The notes under the pieces were generated by a model that did no database searches, was not told where the DNA came from, and saw nothing but the letters and a program-made list of their open reading frames with translations. From Prevotella sp. (GTDB lineage: Bacteria > Bacteroidota > Bacteroidia > Bacteroidales > Bacteroidaceae), in the NCBI GenBank assembly GCA_017478025.1, contig JAFVGZ010000008.1, positions 1 through 34,175 on the forward strand: a DNA stretch of 34,175 nt, read 5' to 3'. Of this stretch, positions 3,453 through 20,981 are shown in pieces. Both the position numbers and the translations under genes were made by a program. How positions within the stretch are numbered: position 1 is the stretch's first letter; each line of letters starts with the position of its first letter.

Positions 3453-4535
3453 ATGATTGAAGGCCCCATCACATTTGATCGCATGGCGCGATGGACTGTT
3501 ATTGCAGTAATAGTAGTCGCCGTTTTCTTCATTCTGGATAAGCTCAGCGCCGTATTGCTTCCTTTTGCCATTGCATGGCTGTTTGCCTACCTGCTATATC
3601 CGTTGGTGAGGTTCATACAGTATCGGCTGCACATAAAGGTGCGCGCCATTGCCATCATCATCACTATGATACTGGCGTTGGCGGTGCTGGCAGGCATTTT
3701 CTGGCTGATTATCCCTCCGATAATCTCGGAGTTCGGGCGCTTTACCAAGGTGTTGACGCACTATCTGGAAAACACCATACACACGGACAGCCTGCCTGAC
3801 ACCATAAACGATTACCTGTTTGCCAACCAAGCACAGATAAAGAAGTTCCTGACATCTGAGAACTTCATGACTGCCCTCAAGGAGGCGATGCCGCAGTTAT
3901 TCACGTTCATGGGCGAGACGATGAGCATCATCATGAGCATCTGCGCGTCGTTCATCACATTATTATACATGTTCTTCATCCTTTTAGACTATGAATACCT
4001 GTCAGAGAACTGGATAAAGATATTCCCCAAGAAGCACCGCCCCTTCTGGGCATCACTCATGGGTGACGTTGAGATAGCCCTGAACAACTACATCAGGGGT
4101 CAGGGACTGGTGGCTACCACGATGGGAATACTCTTCATCATCGGCTTTGCCATAATAAACTTCCCTATGGCTGTGGGCCTGGGCATCCTTATCGGCATAC
4201 TCGACATGGTGCCTTATCTCCATACCTTCGCCCTGATTCCTACTGCATTCCTTGCCTTCCTGAAGGCATCAGAGACGGGACAGAACTTCTGGGTAATCTT
4301 TGCAAGCGCCCTGGCTGTATTCTGTATCGTACAGGTCATCATCGACGCCATCGTGACTCCCAAGATTATGGGGCATAGGATGGGGCTGAACCCTGCAGTG
4401 CTGCTGCTGTCATTGTCGGTATGGGGCGCGCTGTTAGGCTTCATCGGACTTATCATTGCCCTTCCCGCTACAACAATTATCATCTCGTATTGGCAGAGAT
4501 ATATCACTAAAGACACTGACGAGGTGACGAATTGA
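3453..4535 (+). CDS. AI-2E family (PerM/YdiK-type) membrane transporter
   Basis: A 360-residue polytopic inner-membrane protein of the AI-2E_transport family. Two pairs of hydrophobic helices lie near the N-terminus (about 12-50 and 64-90). A soluble, mostly helical middle (about 95-150) separates them from a C-terminal cluster of helices (about 155-350) with the family-typical segment rich in G-I-L-x-G-I-L-D-x-x-P-Y and the late V-x-P-K-I-M-G region. Family members have been linked to export of signalling molecules or to Na+/H+ exchange, so the substrate cannot be named. The stop codon TGA lies inside the first unit of an 8-bp repeat array that fills the gap to rsmI. The two genes may be cotranscribed. 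Confidence 0.87.
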   Translation: MIEGPITFDRMARWTVIAVIVVAVFFILDKLSAVLLPFAIAWLFAYLLYPLVRFIQYRLHIKVRAIAIIITMILALAVLAGIFWLIIPPIISEFGRFTKVLTHYLENTIHTDSLPDTINDYLFANQAQIKKFLTSENFMTALKEAMPQLFTFMGETMSIIMSICASFITLLYMFFILLDYEYLSENWIKIFPKKHRPFWASLMGDVEIALNNYIRGQGLVATTMGILFIIGFAIINFPMAVGLGILIGILDMVPYLHTFALIPTAFLAFLKASETGQNFWVIFASALAVFCIVQVIIDAIVTPKIMGHRMGLNPAVLLLSLSVWGALLGFIGLIIALPATTIIISYWQRYITKDTDEVTN

Positions 4536-4619
4536 CAAATTTACGAATTAACAAATTAACGAGTTAACGAGTTAACAAATTGATAAATTAGCGAGTTAAC
4601 ACATTAACGAATCAACTTA
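4532..4619 (+). repeat. 8-bp tandem repeat array (TTAACRAR type, 11 units)
   Basis: Eleven degenerate 8-bp units, such as TTAACAAA, TTAACGAG and TTAACGAA, run without a break in phase from the stop codon of the transporter to 19 bases before rsmI. The same unit recurs at 11733-11844. Confidence 0.85.
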
Positions 4620-6716: not shown

Positions 6717-7994
6717 ATGGTATTAAATTACATCTTTGTAGCATTCTTTTTCATAGCCTTTCTTATAGGGCTCTTTCGATTGATTTTCCTTGGCGATGTG
6801 GAGGTTTTCCCAGCCATGATGAACTCCACCTTCGACTCTTCCAAGACGGCTTTCGAGATTTCCCTGGGCCTCACGGGCGTCCTGTCGCTGTGGCTCGGCA
6901 TCATGAAAATAGGCGAGAAGGGCGGCGTGGTGAACGTGATAGCCCGTCTGTTGACGCCCATCTTCACACGATTGTTTCCCGATATCCCAAAGGGGCACCC
7001 CGTGACGGGCAGCATCTTCATGAATATCGCCGCCAATATGCTGGGTCTTGACAATGCCGCCACGCCATTAGGCCTGAAGGCAATGGAGCAGATGCAGCAG
7101 CTGAACGAGGAGAATATATCCAAGATGCAGGTGAGCGAGAGCGAGAAAGCCACGCTCCGCGCCACTGCCACGAACCCGATGATAATGTTCCTGGTGCTCA
7201 ACACCTCCGGCCTGACGCTCATTCCGGTGTCCATCATGGTGTATAGGGCACAGATGGGAGCGGCACAACCCACCGACATCTTCATACCGATACTGCTTGC
7301 AACCGCTGTCGCCACATTGGCTGGAATGATTGTCACGGCACTCTATCAGCGCATCAACCTCCTGAACCGCACCCTGATACTGACCCTCCTCGGAGCGATA
7401 GCCATAATGGGCGGCATCATCTGGGGCTTCTCACAGATGGACAAGGACACGATGAACAATGTTTCTACAACGGCTGCAAACATCATGCTGATGACAATAA
7501 TCGTCGGTTTCATCGCTGCCGGAGTAAAGAAAAGGGTCAACGTCTATGAGGCCTTCATCGAAGGAGCAAAGGACGGTTTCACCACCGCCGTGCGCATCAT
7601 CCCATACCTTGTAGCCATCCTCGTAGGCATCGCCGTGTTCCGCGCATCAGGCGCTATGGACGCATTGATAGACGGAGTGAAGTGGACCGTAGAGCTCTGC
7701 GGCATGAACGCCGACTTTGTGGGAGCCCTGCCTACCGCCCTTATGAAACCCCTCTCAGGCAGCGGAGCACGCGGTATGATGGTGGATGCCATGACAGCAT
7801 ACGGTGCAGACAGCTTCATCGGACGCCTGAGCTGCATCTTCCAGGGCAGCACCGACACCACCTTCTACATCCTCGCCGTCTATTTCGGCAGTGTCGGCAT
7901 ACGCCACACCCGCCACGCCGTAGCATGCGGACTGCTGGCAGACCTCGCAGGAATCCTTGCCGCCATTGCCGTAGCCTATATGTTCTTCGGGTAA
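6717..7994 (+). CDS. Fused SpmA-SpmB nucleoside-recognition (Gate) membrane protein
   Basis: A 425-residue integral membrane protein with two related halves. The N-terminal half (about 1-200) resembles SpmA, with G-L-T-G-V-L-S-L-W-L-G and M-N-I-A-A-N-M-L-G-L-D-N-A-A-T-P-L-G. The C-terminal half (about 245-425) resembles SpmB, with a Gate-type I-P-Y-L-V-A-I-L-V-G stretch and a final G-S-T-D-T-T-F-Y-I-L-A-V-Y-F-G-S-V-G. In Bacillus the two are separate spore-maturation genes; in non-sporulating Bacteroidetes the fused form is common and its substrate is unknown. It starts 34 bases after DUF2851. Its stop codon TAA is part of GTAAGACAAT, the left flank of the first 22-bp repeat array. Confidence 0.87.
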   Translation: MVLNYIFVAFFFIAFLIGLFRLIFLGDVEVFPAMMNSTFDSSKTAFEISLGLTGVLSLWLGIMKIGEKGGVVNVIARLLTPIFTRLFPDIPKGHPVTGSIFMNIAANMLGLDNAATPLGLKAMEQMQQLNEENISKMQVSESEKATLRATATNPMIMFLVLNTSGLTLIPVSIMVYRAQMGAAQPTDIFIPILLATAVATLAGMIVTALYQRINLLNRTLILTLLGAIAIMGGIIWGFSQMDKDTMNNVSTTAANIMLMTIIVGFIAAGVKKRVNVYEAFIEGAKDGFTTAVRIIPYLVAILVGIAVFRASGAMDALIDGVKWTVELCGMNADFVGALPTALMKPLSGSGARGMMVDAMTAYGADSFIGRLSCIFQGSTDTTFYILAVYFGSVGIRHTRHAVACGLLADLAGILAAIAVAYMFFG

Positions 7995-8097
7995 GACAAT
8001 GTCGTTTCTATTTTGTTTCGACCTACGAAACAGTTTGTTTCCACCTGCGAAACAAACTGTTTCCCTTTGAGAAACAAAGTGTTTCACAGGTGGAAAT
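7991..8097. repeat. Array 1: four GTTTC-N7-GAAAC dyads on a 22-bp period
   Basis: Left flank GTAAGACAAT (7991-8000) is followed by four 17-bp units starting at 8015, 8037, 8059 and 8081, each spaced exactly 22 bases from the last with 5-base spacers. Unit 1 is GTTTCGACCTACGAAAC. Unit 4 is nearly unit 2 inverted, because the 7-base centre CACCTGC recurs as ACAGGTG. An inverted copy of the right flank seen at array 2 (TTTCTCAAGTAG) lies at 8114-8125. Confidence 0.9.
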
Positions 8098-8202
8098 AAA
8101 TTTGAAACTCGACTTTCTCAAGTAGATAAGCGCCCTGCTCTGGGCTTTCTTCGCCTGAGTACAGCTAAAGATAGGCAGCGTGTGAAGAGAGGCCTAAGCT
8201 GA

Positions 8203-8319
8203 GTAAGACAATTACCAAAGGCTGGTAAACCGATTACCAACGCTTGGTAACCACCTTACCAAGGCTTGGTAACTCAATTACCAACGCTTGGTAACTTCTG
8301 ACTACTTGAGAAACTTGAA
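8203..8319. repeat. Array 2: four TTACCAA/TTGGTAA dyads on a 22-bp period
   Basis: The left flank GTAAGACAAT (8203-8212) runs into four 17-bp dyads at 8212, 8234, 8256 and 8278, for example TTACCAACGCTTGGTAA. The period is exactly 22 and the spacers are 5 bases. The right flank CTGACTACTTGAGAAAC begins at 8298. The geometry equals array 1, but the dyad sequence is different. A single unit with both flanks is at 20931-20981. Confidence 0.92.
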
Positions 8320-8330
8320 TCTGAAACTGT

Positions 8331-8482
8331 ATATCTCAAAACTTAATCGTACTCTGACCTACGTCGCGCTCGGCACACTGTGACGCTTTCACCAAGCGTA
8401 GCGACTGAAAGAACTTACTCCGTCTTGGATATGCAAGAGAAAAAACGAGCTTTTCTCTTGCATATCTCAAAACTTAATCGTA
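8331..8482. repeat. Element B: core between direct copies of a promoter sequence
   Basis: A 21-base sequence beginning ATATCTCAAAACTTAATCG occurs exactly at 8331-8351 and 8462-8482, where the second copy carries the flippase promoter. Between them are a 33-bp core at 8382-8414 (30 of 33 identical to 2957-2989) and a perfect 16-bp inverted repeat (8428-8443 with 8451-8466, 7-base loop) whose right arm is the promoter -33 region. Confidence 0.75.
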
Positions 8483-8488
8483 ACTTTG
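8458..8488 (+). promoter_or_regulatory. Promoter of the flippase gene; decides its start
   Basis: TTG (8458-8460), 20 bases, TAACTTTG (8481-8488) is an ideal Bacteroidetes promoter. It lies downstream of the first possible ATG (8380) of the flippase frame, so that ATG cannot be used from this promoter. The expected transcription start is about 8493-8495, two to four bases before the ATG at 8497. Confidence 0.75.
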
Positions 8489-8496
8489 CACTCGAT

Positions 8497-10017
8497 ATGA
8501 ATATATCGAACAGCGGAATGAAAGTGCTGGCCAAGGACACCGCCGTGTATGGTCTCAGCAGTATTGTGGGCAGGTTTCTGAATTACCTGCTCGTGCCTTT
8601 ATATACAAATGTAATCAGCGCTGAGAGCGGTGGCTACGGCATTGTGACCAATCTGTACGCCTATGTTGCCCTGATATTGGTGTTCCTTACATTCGGCATG
8701 GAAACGACATTCTTCCGCTTTGCCAACAAGGAGGACGAGAATCCGCATCAGGTATTCCGCACCGCACTTGGTATTGTCACCACATTGAGTGTGATATTCC
8801 TCGCTATTGTATTCCTATTTATATCGCCCATAGCACACATTATAGGTTATGACGGCGATACCGAAAAGCTCTACATACAGATAATGGCGTGCGTCGTGGC
8901 GCTGGATGCCATACAGGCGATACCGTTCTCGTACCTCAGATATAAGGGGAAAGCGATAAAATTTGCTACGCTGAAACTGTTGTTTATCGCCCTGAACATC
9001 GGCCTCAACCTGTTTGTATTCGTAGGTCTGCGGTTCACAGACGTTTACTACGTATTCTTCCTGAACCTGGTATGCACGGGCTTTATCACGTTTTTCTTTA
9101 TCCCCGAGCTTGTCGCAGAGTTCAAAAATCACGGTTCCATCGCCTCTGATGCCGCTGCAATGCAGGCAGAAGGTAGCGCTGCCCAAGGCAGTTGGGTATC
9201 GTTATGCAAGCGTATGCTCAGCTATTCGTGGCCCATCTTGGTGCTCGGCATAGCAGGAATACTGAACCAGACTGCTGACAAGATGCTCTTCCCACTGGTA
9301 TATCCCGACCCTCGCGAGGCGCAGGTACAGCTTGGTATCTACGGAGCATGCGTGAAGATAGCCATGATTATGGCGATGATAACACAGGCCTTCCGCTACG
9401 CCTACGAGCCAATAGTGTTCCGTCTGAGCGGCAAGCGAGGCGACAATACAGACAGCAACGGGAGCGCAGAGGAGAAGAGTAAGGCTACTCAGGCACGTGC
9501 CATGAAGTTCTTTCTCATGGGAACGCTGTTCGCCTTCCTGTGCGTGGTGGGCTATATGCCATTACTGCAATACATCATCGGCGAGGACTATCGCGCCGGA
9601 TTGCGCGTGGTGCCCATCGTGATGGTGGCCGAAATAATGATGGGAATATATTTCAACCTGTCCTTCTGGTACAAGCTGATAGACAAGACCATCTGGGGTG
9701 CATGGTTCTCCTTAGCGGGATGCACGGTGCTCGTGGCCGTGAATGTGCTGTTCATTCCACAGTATAGCTACATGGCCTGCGCGTGGGGCGGCGTGGCAGG
9801 TTACGGTACGGCGATGGTGCTTTCCTATTTGGTGGGTCAGCGAAAGTACCCCATCGACTATGACCTCAAGACGCTGGGAGTCTATGTATCACTTACCGTG
9901 GTGCTATACTACGTCATGACAGATGTCAGCGCCCTGCTCCCGACCATCTTGCAACTGCTTAGCAATACACTATTAATTGCCCTCTTCATACTTTATCTCA
10001 TAAAGACCGAACGATGA
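8497..10017 (+). CDS. Polysaccharide/lipid-linked oligosaccharide flippase (Wzx/MATE-like)
   Basis: A membrane protein of about 506 residues from this start, of the polysaccharide biosynthesis (MVF/MATE) superfamily, that would move lipid-linked sugar precursors across the inner membrane. It shows the typical start K-V-L-A-K-D-T-A-V-Y-G-L-S-S-I-V-G-R-F-L-N-Y, about 12-14 hydrophobic helices over its length, and a charged cytoplasmic loop near the middle (G-K-R-G-D-N ... E-E-K-S-K). The frame is open upstream to an ATG at 8380, but that stretch is repeat element B plus the promoter, so I start at 8497 (probable leaderless mRNA); ATG 8518 is the alternative. The end overlaps the next gene (ATGA, four bases), indicating an operon with the Na/Pi cotransporter. 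Confidence 0.87.
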   Translation: MNISNSGMKVLAKDTAVYGLSSIVGRFLNYLLVPLYTNVISAESGGYGIVTNLYAYVALILVFLTFGMETTFFRFANKEDENPHQVFRTALGIVTTLSVIFLAIVFLFISPIAHIIGYDGDTEKLYIQIMACVVALDAIQAIPFSYLRYKGKAIKFATLKLLFIALNIGLNLFVFVGLRFTDVYYVFFLNLVCTGFITFFFIPELVAEFKNHGSIASDAAAMQAEGSAAQGSWVSLCKRMLSYSWPILVLGIAGILNQTADKMLFPLVYPDPREAQVQLGIYGACVKIAMIMAMITQAFRYAYEPIVFRLSGKRGDNTDSNGSAEEKSKATQARAMKFFLMGTLFAFLCVVGYMPLLQYIIGEDYRAGLRVVPIVMVAEIMMGIYFNLSFWYKLIDKTIWGAWFSLAGCTVLVAVNVLFIPQYSYMACAWGGVAGYGTAMVLSYLVGQRKYPIDYDLKTLGVYVSLTVVLYYVMTDVSALLPTILQLLSNTLLIALFILYLIKTER

Positions 10018-11726: not shown

Positions 11727-11732
11727 AACAAA

Positions 11733-11844
11733 TTAACGAATTAACAAATTAACGAATTAACAAATTAACAAATTAACAAATTAACAAATTAACAAATTAA
11801 CGAATTATCGACTCATCGAAATAACAAACTCACGGATTAACAAC
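11733..11844 (+). repeat. 8-bp tandem repeat array (TTAACRAA type, 14 units)
   Basis: Fourteen 8-bp units, the first nine being TTAACGAA or TTAACAAA without error and the last five degenerate, fill the space from just after the Na/Pi stop codon to the TTG start of the next gene. The phase stays at 8 throughout. Confidence 0.92.
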
Positions 11845-15950: not shown

Positions 15951-18536
15951 TCAGTCAGATAATACAAGCGTTGACTTCTCTCCCGGATAGGTGATATCCT
16001 TTGGCCTCTGTCCGTTGATGATGACCCCGAGCATCATTACTCCGGTACATCCGTCAATGGATGCCGTTGGGTCTTCTGCCGTGATTGTCGCGTCCTGTAA
16101 TACGAAGCCCTGCGTGTCGCGCATCTTCATATATTGGTTGCAGTTAGCTCGTATGTTGCTGATAAGTACGTTGCGCAATGGCCGCTCTGGCAGCCCGAGC
16201 GCGAAGACAAGCTGACGGCAGTTCTCTATGATGACATTATTAACTTTGACAGTGTTAAAGTCTGGCGTCTGAATGTTAATGGGTTGAGCCGGCAATCGTT
16301 TAGCCAGGTCTCCCCCCCACTTGATGCTTCCAAGCATGTCGCAGAAGAAAGCATAATCCTTTACATTGGCTCTGATACGCTCCACAGTAAGCCCTTCCAC
16401 GCCTCCTCCGCGTGGACGCAGCGTCTTAATACGTACCGCCTGGTCTGTCCCTTGGAATACGCAGTCGTGGCAGTAGATATTCTTTATGCCACCAGCGACT
16501 TCGGTTCCACATACTATTCCTCCTGCTCCACGCAGCGCGAGACAGTGGCGCACGACTACGTTCTGCGTAGGAATTCCTACGCGCACACCCTCTTCGTTAC
16601 GTCCGCTCTTCATGGTGTAGCAATCGTCCTGACAATCCAGAGAGCAATACTCCACAAGCACATTCTTTGACGATTCTATGTCTATGCCGTCCGTTCTTCC
16701 GTGTCCGTAGCTGCTGACTGTGACACCACGTATTATGACGTTTTCACAGTATTGCGGCACTATGTTCCAGTATAGCCCCTGACATACTGTGATGCCTTCG
16801 ATCAGTACGTTCTTACAGCGTATCGGTGCTACAGACTTTGGCAGGAACACCTCGCCGTTTCGATGCTTGCCATCAAATACACGCTCTGAGATTGGCATGT
16901 CCGGCGAGATTATCTTCTCTATGTTGAGCGCCTTTTCCTTGTTAATCTGATAAATCTCACAGTCTGTGGATGGACCGATTATTTTTCCCTTACCTGTCAG
17001 AGCTATGTTTTCAGCTTCATTAGCATAGATAAACGCTCCGAGCGACATGATTTCGATACCCTCATCGCGTGTGAACACAACGGGCAGATAGTCCTTAATG
17101 TGTCCGCTGAAAGAGAGTTCGCACCCTTCGCTAAGATGCAGCTCCACGCCGGATTTGAGTTCTATGCGTCCCGACATCCACTTTCCTGCGGGGATGATGA
17201 CCTTTCCTCCGCCCCGCTTTGCCATTTTGTCTATGGCTGCCTGTATGGCTTTGGTGGACATTCCTTTTTTCGACATGCTGACGACAGCTTTTCTTGCAGC
17301 TATCTGTGGTCGCTGTAACTGTGGCATAGTAAATGGTGCGCAGATGGGTGCTATCTCCGGTGTCATGGCTTCAGGCCCTACATCCTGCAATGTGGGGATA
17401 TCGTAATCCTCAATCCTCCATTCATCTTGCCAGATTAGCATTGGCTTTCCCTCGGGTGAGAATGTGATGGGAAGGAATACGTAGCGCGAGTCTTCGGTGG
17501 TGTCCCACTTATTACGTTTCACCCCGGTCTTGTCTTTCACCTGCGGTGTGGTGAAGTCACGGTCGAAAGGCTTGTGATTGGTGTAGCGCTGCGCGTAGTT
17601 CTTGGCTATGCGTACAGGGATATCCGTCCCCACGAGATTAGGCAGCCACCTGTCTGCCAAGGCGACATAGAGATTGCGTCCCGGTATCTTGATAACGCTG
17701 GTTATCTGTGATGCGAAGGAGTCTTCAAACTTGTCATCAATGCATGGATCACCTAAGTCGGTATAGTGTCCGTGATATTGGTCAAAGACGCATACCTTTG
17801 ACGGGTTGGGCACATAGCCTGTCGTACCGCTTGTAAACATATAGTGCCGTCCTCTCCATGTGAAGTGTGCCGGCGCTTCACGCGTGTATGGAGGTTTGTT
17901 GCCTATGAAGTGCTCAGAGAACTTGCCGTTGGTTCCGAGGAAGTCGTCTGTCAGTTCAGCACAGATCATTTCCCAGTGTGGACGCTCAAACCATACGTAG
18001 CCTTTACCTGTTTCAGGATCACAGTACATGTCAAAGTCTCCCACTCCGAATCCTTCTGGCTTCAGGCTCTTGACGAGCGTGTATGGTCCTTCAAACTTGT
18101 CAGCCTGGAGTATCACGAAAAAGCCGTCCGTGTCCATTGACTTTATCCAGCATACCCATTTGTCCATCTTTTTGTTGTAGAGTATGTGCGGTCTGTCCAA
18201 GGTCTGCGAAAAGTGCAGTGGTGAGAGAGGGTTCACCGTGTCGGGTGGTATGATGAGTCCAAGGTCTTCCCAGTTGTAGAAGTCCTTTGAGCGATACGCC
18301 CGTATGCCCCATGTCCACACGTTAGAGTCCATCTTTGTGTTTTCCTTGTTCTCTCCATACCAATAGTATGTACCGTCTTTCTCAAATATCTGAAAGCCGT
18401 GCGCATGGATGGGGTTGCCATTGGTGTCCAGCCATTTTTGCCCCGGACGTATGCTGTTGTAGCGCTGCGCTGAGGCATTGATGGTGAGAGCCAAGAGAAT
18501 CAGGATAGTAGAGAGGATTGATAATGTCTTGTTCAT
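15951..18536 (-). CDS. Secreted GH43-GH28 fusion glycoside hydrolase
   Basis: An 861-residue exported protein (signal peptide 1-23, A-S-A-Q). Residues about 25-400 are a five-bladed GH43-type domain, with the entry motif D-T-N-G-N-P-I-H-A-H-G and Y-Y-W-Y-G-E typical of the beta-galactosidase/exo-galactanase-like subfamilies. Residues about 425-850 are a GH28 right-handed beta-helix (polygalacturonase/rhamnogalacturonan hydrolase). It starts I-Q-A-A-I-D-K-M-A-K-R-G-G-G-K-V-I-I-P-A-G and keeps catalytic Asp616 (T-D-G-I-D), Asp637-Asp638 and Arg702-Ile-Lys704. The His of the G-H-G motif is Ala671 (G-A-G-G-I-V), and the Asn of N-T-D is Arg614. Activity of the GH28 half is therefore uncertain. Together the domains suggest trimming of galactan or other side chains and backbone of pectin. 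No promoter is clear within 180 bases upstream, so it may be read from the upstream minus-strand genes. Confidence 0.88.
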   Translation of the reverse strand: MNKTLSILSTILILLALTINASAQRYNSIRPGQKWLDTNGNPIHAHGFQIFEKDGTYYWYGENKENTKMDSNVWTWGIRAYRSKDFYNWEDLGLIIPPDTVNPLSPLHFSQTLDRPHILYNKKMDKWVCWIKSMDTDGFFVILQADKFEGPYTLVKSLKPEGFGVGDFDMYCDPETGKGYVWFERPHWEMICAELTDDFLGTNGKFSEHFIGNKPPYTREAPAHFTWRGRHYMFTSGTTGYVPNPSKVCVFDQYHGHYTDLGDPCIDDKFEDSFASQITSVIKIPGRNLYVALADRWLPNLVGTDIPVRIAKNYAQRYTNHKPFDRDFTTPQVKDKTGVKRNKWDTTEDSRYVFLPITFSPEGKPMLIWQDEWRIEDYDIPTLQDVGPEAMTPEIAPICAPFTMPQLQRPQIAARKAVVSMSKKGMSTKAIQAAIDKMAKRGGGKVIIPAGKWMSGRIELKSGVELHLSEGCELSFSGHIKDYLPVVFTRDEGIEIMSLGAFIYANEAENIALTGKGKIIGPSTDCEIYQINKEKALNIEKIISPDMPISERVFDGKHRNGEVFLPKSVAPIRCKNVLIEGITVCQGLYWNIVPQYCENVIIRGVTVSSYGHGRTDGIDIESSKNVLVEYCSLDCQDDCYTMKSGRNEEGVRVGIPTQNVVVRHCLALRGAGGIVCGTEVAGGIKNIYCHDCVFQGTDQAVRIKTLRPRGGGVEGLTVERIRANVKDYAFFCDMLGSIKWGGDLAKRLPAQPINIQTPDFNTVKVNNVIIENCRQLVFALGLPERPLRNVLISNIRANCNQYMKMRDTQGFVLQDATITAEDPTASIDGCTGVMMLGVIINGQRPKDITYPGEKSTLVLSD

Positions 18537-20930: not shown

Positions 20931-20981
20931 GTAAGACGATTACCAAAGCTTGGTAATGCCTGACTACTTGATAAACCTGAA
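20931..20981. repeat. Solitary copy of the array-2 unit with both flanks
   Basis: GTAAGACGAT, one dyad TTACCAAAGCTTGGTAA (20940-20956), three bases, then CTGACTACTTGATAAAC. The flanks match array 2 in sequence and spacing (9 of 10 on the left, 20 of 22 on the right), but there is one unit rather than four. It sits in the 5' leader of the GH106 gene and could form a hairpin in the mRNA. Confidence 0.88.

Follow-up and report, generated by a model that had tools for sequence, protein, structure and literature searches.

A widespread pairing of DUF6078 genes with palindrome arrays of 22-bp period suggests a fast-evolving protein–DNA recognition system in Prevotella and its relatives

Genes of the DUF6078 family are often accompanied by short palindromes arrayed in tandem, nearly always on a 22-bp period, in a pairing that is widespread and apparently undescribed. 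Strict arrays (at least three dyads with 6-bp arms, at most one mismatch and neighbouring arms alike) of period 22 lie within 400 bp of 83 of 151 distinct DUF6078 genes, which were obtained from 166 loci (ten of them first found through arrays) by removing repeats. Periods of 21 and 23 bp are found at three distinct genes each and the other periods between 18 and 28 bp at none; when two mismatches are tolerated (the weak rule) the count rises to 106 of 151, leaving 45 genes with no array within that distance. The letters of the dyads vary widely and follow those of the protein, which suggests a fast-evolving protein–DNA recognition system. We infer that the arrays are probably cognate binding sites of DUF6078, recognised as double-stranded DNA.

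The window, meaning the whole 34,175-nt stretch of DNA analysed, is contig C18 of a Prevotella genome (G000, the source genome below) whose assembly is 84.7% complete. The first-pass annotation had described two adjacent arrays in it, each of four units on a 22-bp period, and rereading of the positions bore this out. The GTTTC-N7-GAAAC units of array 1 (8015..8097) start at 8015, 8037, 8059 and 8081, and the TTACCAA-N3-TTGGTAA units of array 2 (8212..8294; core TTACC-N7-GGTAA) start at 8212, 8234, 8256 and 8278. At periods of 14–44 bp, the strict detector finds these two arrays only in the whole window, both of period 22. Neither 20 locally shuffled windows scanned over the same periods nor one shuffle of each of 121 DUF6078 loci contained a strict array. 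The units had all been read as perfect dyads, and this stands for three of the four in each array (the exceptions are GTTTC-N7-GAAAT, fourth in array 1, and TTACCAA-AGG-CTGGTAA, first in array 2); constant arms of 7 bp do not stand, those of related arrays being about 5–6 bp (TTACC..GGTAA, GTTTC..GAAAC). Similarly, the decamer GTAAGACAAT does precede both arrays, at 7991..8000 (+) and at 8203..8212 (+), where it comprises the end of a leader and the first base of array 2, but as a meaningful introducer it fares less well. Since the first copy shares bases with the stop codon that closes the ORF at 6717–7994, and the decamer is absent from the stretches read around three other GTTTC arrays of the source genome, the sharing is probably a coincidence; faint likenesses, ATAAGACTC and GTAAGGCTC, are found some distance before two of those three arrays. 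The window also holds tandem arrays of 8/16-bp units (e.g. AACAAATTAACGAATT) at 4527–4616 and 11727–11843, and at 8420–8500 an inverted repeat that centres on TATGCAAGAGAAAAAACGAGCTTTTCTCTTGCATA and leads into CTCAAAACTTAATCGTAACTTTG, with likenesses beside the arrays at loci L043, L058 and L062. These stretches may form a further repeat family whose end resembles a promoter.

Array 2 is enclosed, as had been reported, by an inverted pair, made up of the left terminal inverted repeat TTTCTCAAGTAG (8114..8125, +) and the right one CTACTTGAGAAA (8302..8313, +), with a leader (8126..8211, +) ahead of the units. Terminal inverted repeats, small size, lack of a transposase and many copies, which are features of a MITE, are all found here. 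The last 48 bp of the leader, which were used for recognition, recur with up to 14 mismatches at 10 places (array 2 included) among 26 loci scanned in the source genome, and CTACTTGAGAAA has 17 exact places. The layout of this subset is a leader, three or four units with position-conserved spacers, a tail that may be short or long, and CTACTTGAGAAA at the ends, both terminal repeats not being kept in every copy. A single-unit version lies in the window at 20931..20975 (+), with the leader end GTAAGACGA, one dyad TTACCAAAGCTTGGTAA (20940–20956) and a tail ending CTACTTGATAAA (20964–20975). Other TTACC arrays of the source genome have neither leader nor tail, and some have 28-bp units. The idea that the flanks of array 2 are common across genomes was not borne out: among 200 genomes of the same genus, leader and tail were not found beyond the source genome, and a 236-bp array 2 query matched nine others within the array part (104–196) only. 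Loci L063, L064 and L065 carry as inverted end either CTACTTGAGAAA itself or CTACTTGCGAAA, which differs by one letter, with cores of CGCCCTGAAAGGGC palindromes or GACGCTTGCGTAAC blocks, and from these shared ends and other cores the element looks modular.

Both array classes extend beyond the window. In the source genome 24 places match the TTACCAA-N3-TTGGTAA pair pattern, with 49 forward matches in all (reversed control, none), and a DNA search adds further places, 26 arrays of this class having been read with their flanks; GTTTC arrays occur at four places, namely array 1 and contigs C30, C6 and C34. Exact TTACCAA pairs are found in one of 301 genomes of the family, the source genome itself, and in seven stretches of a named-record collection from which its own records are possibly excluded. 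With 5-bp arms, the TTACC-N7-GGTAA class is present in 17 of 200 same-genus genomes (reversed control, none), headed by the source genome with 77 pairs, and the GTTTC-N7-GAAAC class in 27 of 200, with up to 115 pairs per genome; the reversed control for the latter matches one of 200 genomes and is itself a palindromic array pattern. Within classes, loops and spacers differ freely between genomes. Some classes also have arrays dispersed about the genome at a distance from the DUF6078 gene. None of 48 TTACC arrays read in the source genome and its relatives, some of them adjoining DUF6078, lies within an ORF; by mechanical ORF calls, 31 are between tandem ORFs, nine between divergent and seven between convergent ones, and one is at a contig edge. 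Among GTTTC arrays, 19 of 49 fall within ORFs of at least 80 aa, some in real-looking genes (L145 2201–3451, L152 2174–3403, L116 1278–2399 and L139); by eye, the arrays of L145 and L152 occupy a similar spot of the same gene in two genomes.

A protein gene whose presence correlates with the arrays, for which the first-pass annotation had proposed a search, was found in DUF6078. Clustering of 295 proteins near 97 arrays showed one short protein family to adjoin arrays of both classes at six loci, tblastn extended it to ten genomes, and all ten proteins tested were PF19555 (DUF6078), with scores of 115–137 bits against a Pfam gathering cut-off of 27. The family occurs in 117 of the 200 same-genus genomes and in one of 14 control genomes; of the 42 genomes that have either class of array 33 carry it, versus 84 of 158 others (p 0.003). 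Nine of the 42 have no DUF6078 match; genome G310 (99% complete) has eight TTACC pairs and no match. Order-wide, the gene is present in nine of 295 genomes, the source genome included. Four plasmid-collection records carry it (Bacteroides finegoldii, Parabacteroides distasonis twice and Treponema saccharophilum), as do four phage-collection records that are unverified phage scaffolds; despite these, two scans of a viral-contig collection did not find it. Searches of PADLOC, PHROGs, NCBIfam and PDB sequences gave nothing of weight, and single-sequence structure prediction (pLDDT 38.8) was useless for a fold search. No paper using the term DUF6078 was found in literature coverage that leaves out most subscription papers, and the titles and opening lines of abstracts on palindromic, iteron-like and inverted repeats in these bacteria mention no such arrays.

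By locus, repeats included, the weak rule places an array beside 118 of 166 DUF6078 loci versus 27 of 380 pseudo-genes in control DNA. In a first set of 121 loci (110 by gene match, ten via arrays and one fragment from the source genome), a strict period-22 array is present in 67, and periods of 21, 23 and 33 bp in two, three and two, with none at the others from 16 to 32 bp. The 110 gene-match loci hold 57 period-22 arrays in 321 kb versus nine in the control DNA (400 kb, drawn from 20 genomes of the same set), where all other periods from 16 to 33 bp together account for six; in genomes G481 and G323 the control array shares, by eye, its dyad with the DUF6078-side array of the same genome. 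Also in control DNA, L287 has a period-22 array at 16520–16667, as L285 does at 370–430 and 17482–17564, with dyads (AAAAGG..CCTTTT, CAAAAC..GTTTTG) that were not noticed beside any DUF6078 gene read. The 110 loci are not a random sample: 30 (L158–L187) have the best HMM scores, one a genome, the next 40 favoured genomes with TTACC or GTTTC arrays, and the last 40 (L228–L267) are from genomes with neither, the strict period-22 arrays numbering 9 of 30, 25 of 40 and 23 of 40, respectively. One apparent array (L315) is a run of N and was not counted, and later scans skip arrays containing N. In 13 loci from other genera or families of the order, there are five strict arrays of period 22, four weak ones, one strict array of period 21 and three loci without any, whilst all eight plasmid- and phage-collection records have an array (five strict, three weak), that of the Treponema plasmid being a weak-rule one.

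The geometry of the arrays is tightly kept. In the source genome, TTACC units measure 17 bp (103 units), 18 bp (five), 28 bp (seven) or 29 bp (one), with none from 19 to 27 bp, and 91 of 92 spacers have a length of 5 bp, so that unit sizes step by about one helical turn. These figures fit the annotation's proposal of an operator array on one DNA face. Its view that geometry is constant whilst the dyad changes is strongly supported, many unlike dyads sharing the one 22-bp period. It had further supposed that a dedicated enzyme copies the layout; selection on a binding site is an alternative that can explain the conserved arms and drifting loops and spacers. Across eight leader-anchored four-unit copies in the source genome, departures from the majority letter number 0 of 384 cells in the arms and about 38 of 384 in the leader, a contrast that is somewhat inflated because these loci were found partly through their arms.

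Dyad letters covary with the protein. Average linkage of 73 gene–array pairs gives 37, 24 or 16 dyad groups at cuts of 0.3, 0.4 and 0.5, some of them single. Mean array distance climbs from 0.18 to 0.71 with protein distance (Mantel rho 0.37; 0 of 999 permutations), and on a tree of the 73 proteins, built from few columns and with 22 of 70 inner branches open, nine dyad groups need 12 label changes, against 31.7 for shuffled labels (0 of 200); the small group c3 shows no clustering on it. The association beyond overall distance peaks in segments within residues 73–109 (numbering of the protein from the source genome), and five columns (73, 77, 84, 96 and 100) stand above the 95% threshold set by permutation maxima (0.145). 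Joint inheritance of gene and array could partly produce this covariation. Matching of class per genome stands at 11 of 13 versus 1 of 59 for TTACC, gene-side arrays being counted among the pairs; for GTTTC, an array of the class adjoins DUF6078 in 5 of 21 GTTTC genomes with a read gene versus 3 of 51 without the class (p 0.04), a weak match, and in genome G393, with 115 GTTTC pairs, all three DUF6078 genes nevertheless adjoin different dyads, in one case under the weak rule alone. In the source genome, contig C6 carries the one intact DUF6078 gene, which has a TTACCAA array beside it, and C4 carries a C-terminal fragment. Compared with 129 proteins, this fragment comes closest to three of GTTTC class (63, 59 and 47% identity over 51 residues); the next one (45%) is not of that class. 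The TTCCC class seen at L208 has an N5 loop, and the pattern searched had N7; the latter was found in one of 200 genomes, G420, with 36 pairs. This genome has five DUF6078 matches, three of which were read, and one gene (L264, the same as in L295) has a TTCCC-N7-class array by the weak rule only, a link that is suggestive but was drawn after the fact.

Among the closest known systems are REP/REPIN elements with their RAYT (TnpA-REP) proteins (REPtrons), in which palindromes are mobilised, in the form of single-stranded hairpins, by the protein of the adjoining gene, and which share with the present arrays a cognate gene beside the palindromes, dispersed copies and gene–palindrome co-evolution (parts of PMC3116915 and PMC8266576). 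The annotation's candidate partner was a Y1 (REP-associated) transposase or another protein. However, DUF6078 has no conserved histidine pair: no histidine column exceeds 40%, and the H-hydrophobic-H motif is present in only four of 129 proteins. The arrays differ further in having at least three dyads at a fixed 22-bp phase, freely varying loops and no sign of wobble pairing. A role for the GTAG pointed to by the annotation finds no support here; by eye, the spacers show no constant letters of GTAG or CGTC type. Membership of such a system was rejected on the missing HUH pair, and we regard mobilisation of this kind as very unlikely. The arrays could instead act as RNA hairpins in the 3′ UTR of the DUF6078 transcript, as an attenuator or through RNA-binding autoregulation, and have been copied elsewhere; their position would suit this, 69 of the 83 strict arrays being downstream of the gene and 14 upstream. 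RNA hairpins would favour G-T pairs, whilst double-stranded sites predict equality, and on the gene's strand the imperfect pairs of 60 downstream arrays comprise 88 G-T and 91 A-C (19 and 14 in 13 upstream arrays). This lack of wobble bias argues for double-stranded sites, and with the varied placement of TTACC arrays among tandem, divergent and convergent ORFs it makes the RNA reading, rejected on the wobble test, the most improbable that we considered. The element around array 2 resembles the BrickBuilt MITE of Porphyromonas gingivalis, which has 19 copies in one strain, in having a tandem repeat of nearly equal length, flanked by a leader and a tail, and terminal inverted repeats; the 23-nt repeat AGAYCATARTATCCTCTCRTRTG and IS5-like ends (e.g. 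GAGACCTTTGCA) of BrickBuilt differ by eye, for which reason that identity was rejected, and the word 'palindrom' occurs nowhere in the main text of its description (PMC4596501, in part). PINSR, the Prevotella intermedia/nigrescens repeat, is likewise a lineage-specific amplified intergenic repeat, but it is 188 bp long and lacks terminal inverted repeats, and the part of its description drawn on here mentions no 22-bp dyad array (PMC4755523). None of the known families compared holds the pairing, REP/RAYT systems and BrickBuilt each failing a tested feature, and a candidate initiator for an iteron replicon being present in only part of the loci.

It is also conceivable that gene and array are mere neighbours in a common mobile cassette, with no recognition between them and another factor holding the period. 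Their sporadic distribution, the plasmid- and phage-collection records and the hitchhiking of array 2 itself within a MITE-like element would agree with this, but conserved arms amid varying loops and spacers, and array letters that track the protein, make it quite unlikely. A more specific form of DUF6078 binding, whose confidence overlaps with that of binding in general, starts from the gene's neighbourhood. A BT4734-like gene neighbours DUF6078 in 63 of 166 loci, a count redone on all loci, whereas that of intergene positions skipped 14 without a called DUF6078. One full-length BT4734-like protein that was scanned contains PF08800, PF05272 and PF12990 (BT4734-like_N, VapE-like and DUF3874 domains). 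Array and BT4734 are both downstream of DUF6078 on the same strand in 24 distinct loci, and of the 25 such loci where the order is readable, 24 have the array between DUF6078 and BT4734; with BT4734 first, the array is upstream of it in 5 of 15 wider loci (15 of 21 known). RhuM-annotated-kind genes are found near DUF6078 in four loci, among them L334 (928–1971). BT4734-like proteins are listed among archaeo-eukaryotic primases, and VirE/PF05272 ATPase domains are predicted helicases of mobile elements (part of PMC5862659), so that, with the adjacency, a replication role in part of the DUF6078 family is plausible but unproven. The array may then act, like iterons, as the origin of a mobile replicon or as the region controlling its copy number, with the BT4734/VapE PrimPol-helicase as initiator, DUF6078 as an accessory origin binder and solitary arrays as relics. 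About 22 bp is the usual iteron period, and plasmid iterons with their Rep initiators are likewise helically phased short repeats, lying near a replication gene as the arrays do in a subset of loci. Classical iterons, however, are direct repeats, not inverted half-sites; DUF6078 is the more constant partner here, and many loci have no replication gene in reach, 76 of 106 genes with weak-rule arrays lacking a BT4734 neighbour in the stretch read. No other protein family occurs in at least three of 20 wider loci. We hold the replicon reading only tentatively, as possible but not the likelier case.

Returning to the arrays as cognate DUF6078 sites, a DUF6078 dimer would bind each dyad as double-stranded DNA, perhaps with a metal site formed by the four near-invariant cysteines of the protein. 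Half-sites would lie about 11 bp apart on one DNA face, so that neighbouring dimers could sit side by side. The gene-side array may serve control of the DUF6078 gene itself, the mostly downstream position being odd for an autorepressor, and replication control where a BT4734/VapE PrimPol-helicase gene is beside the array; the predicted binding may thus serve autoregulation, replication control or a selfish repeat. Arrays away from the gene would have spread by hitchhiking, as array 2 may have done inside its MITE-like element. The partner of array 2 would be the intact DUF6078 encoded on contig C6, and that of array 1, to judge from the nearest relatives, the DUF6078 now reduced to the C4 fragment. 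A bolder idea, which we think unlikely, is that DUF6078, with its PrimPol/VapE partner where present, forms an addressing system for DNA that is able to evolve: it would write or amplify phased arrays in the genome that match its own specificity, and would be re-targeted as protein and dyad co-evolve, the 22-bp frame remaining fixed.

These results provide a first lead to a role for DUF6078, a family of unknown function present in more than half of the genomes of the genus that were searched, and account for a class of palindrome arrays in these genomes. The 73 natural protein–site pairs, which combine many specificities (16–37 groups, depending on the cut) with a constant geometry, offer a data set for a recognition code.
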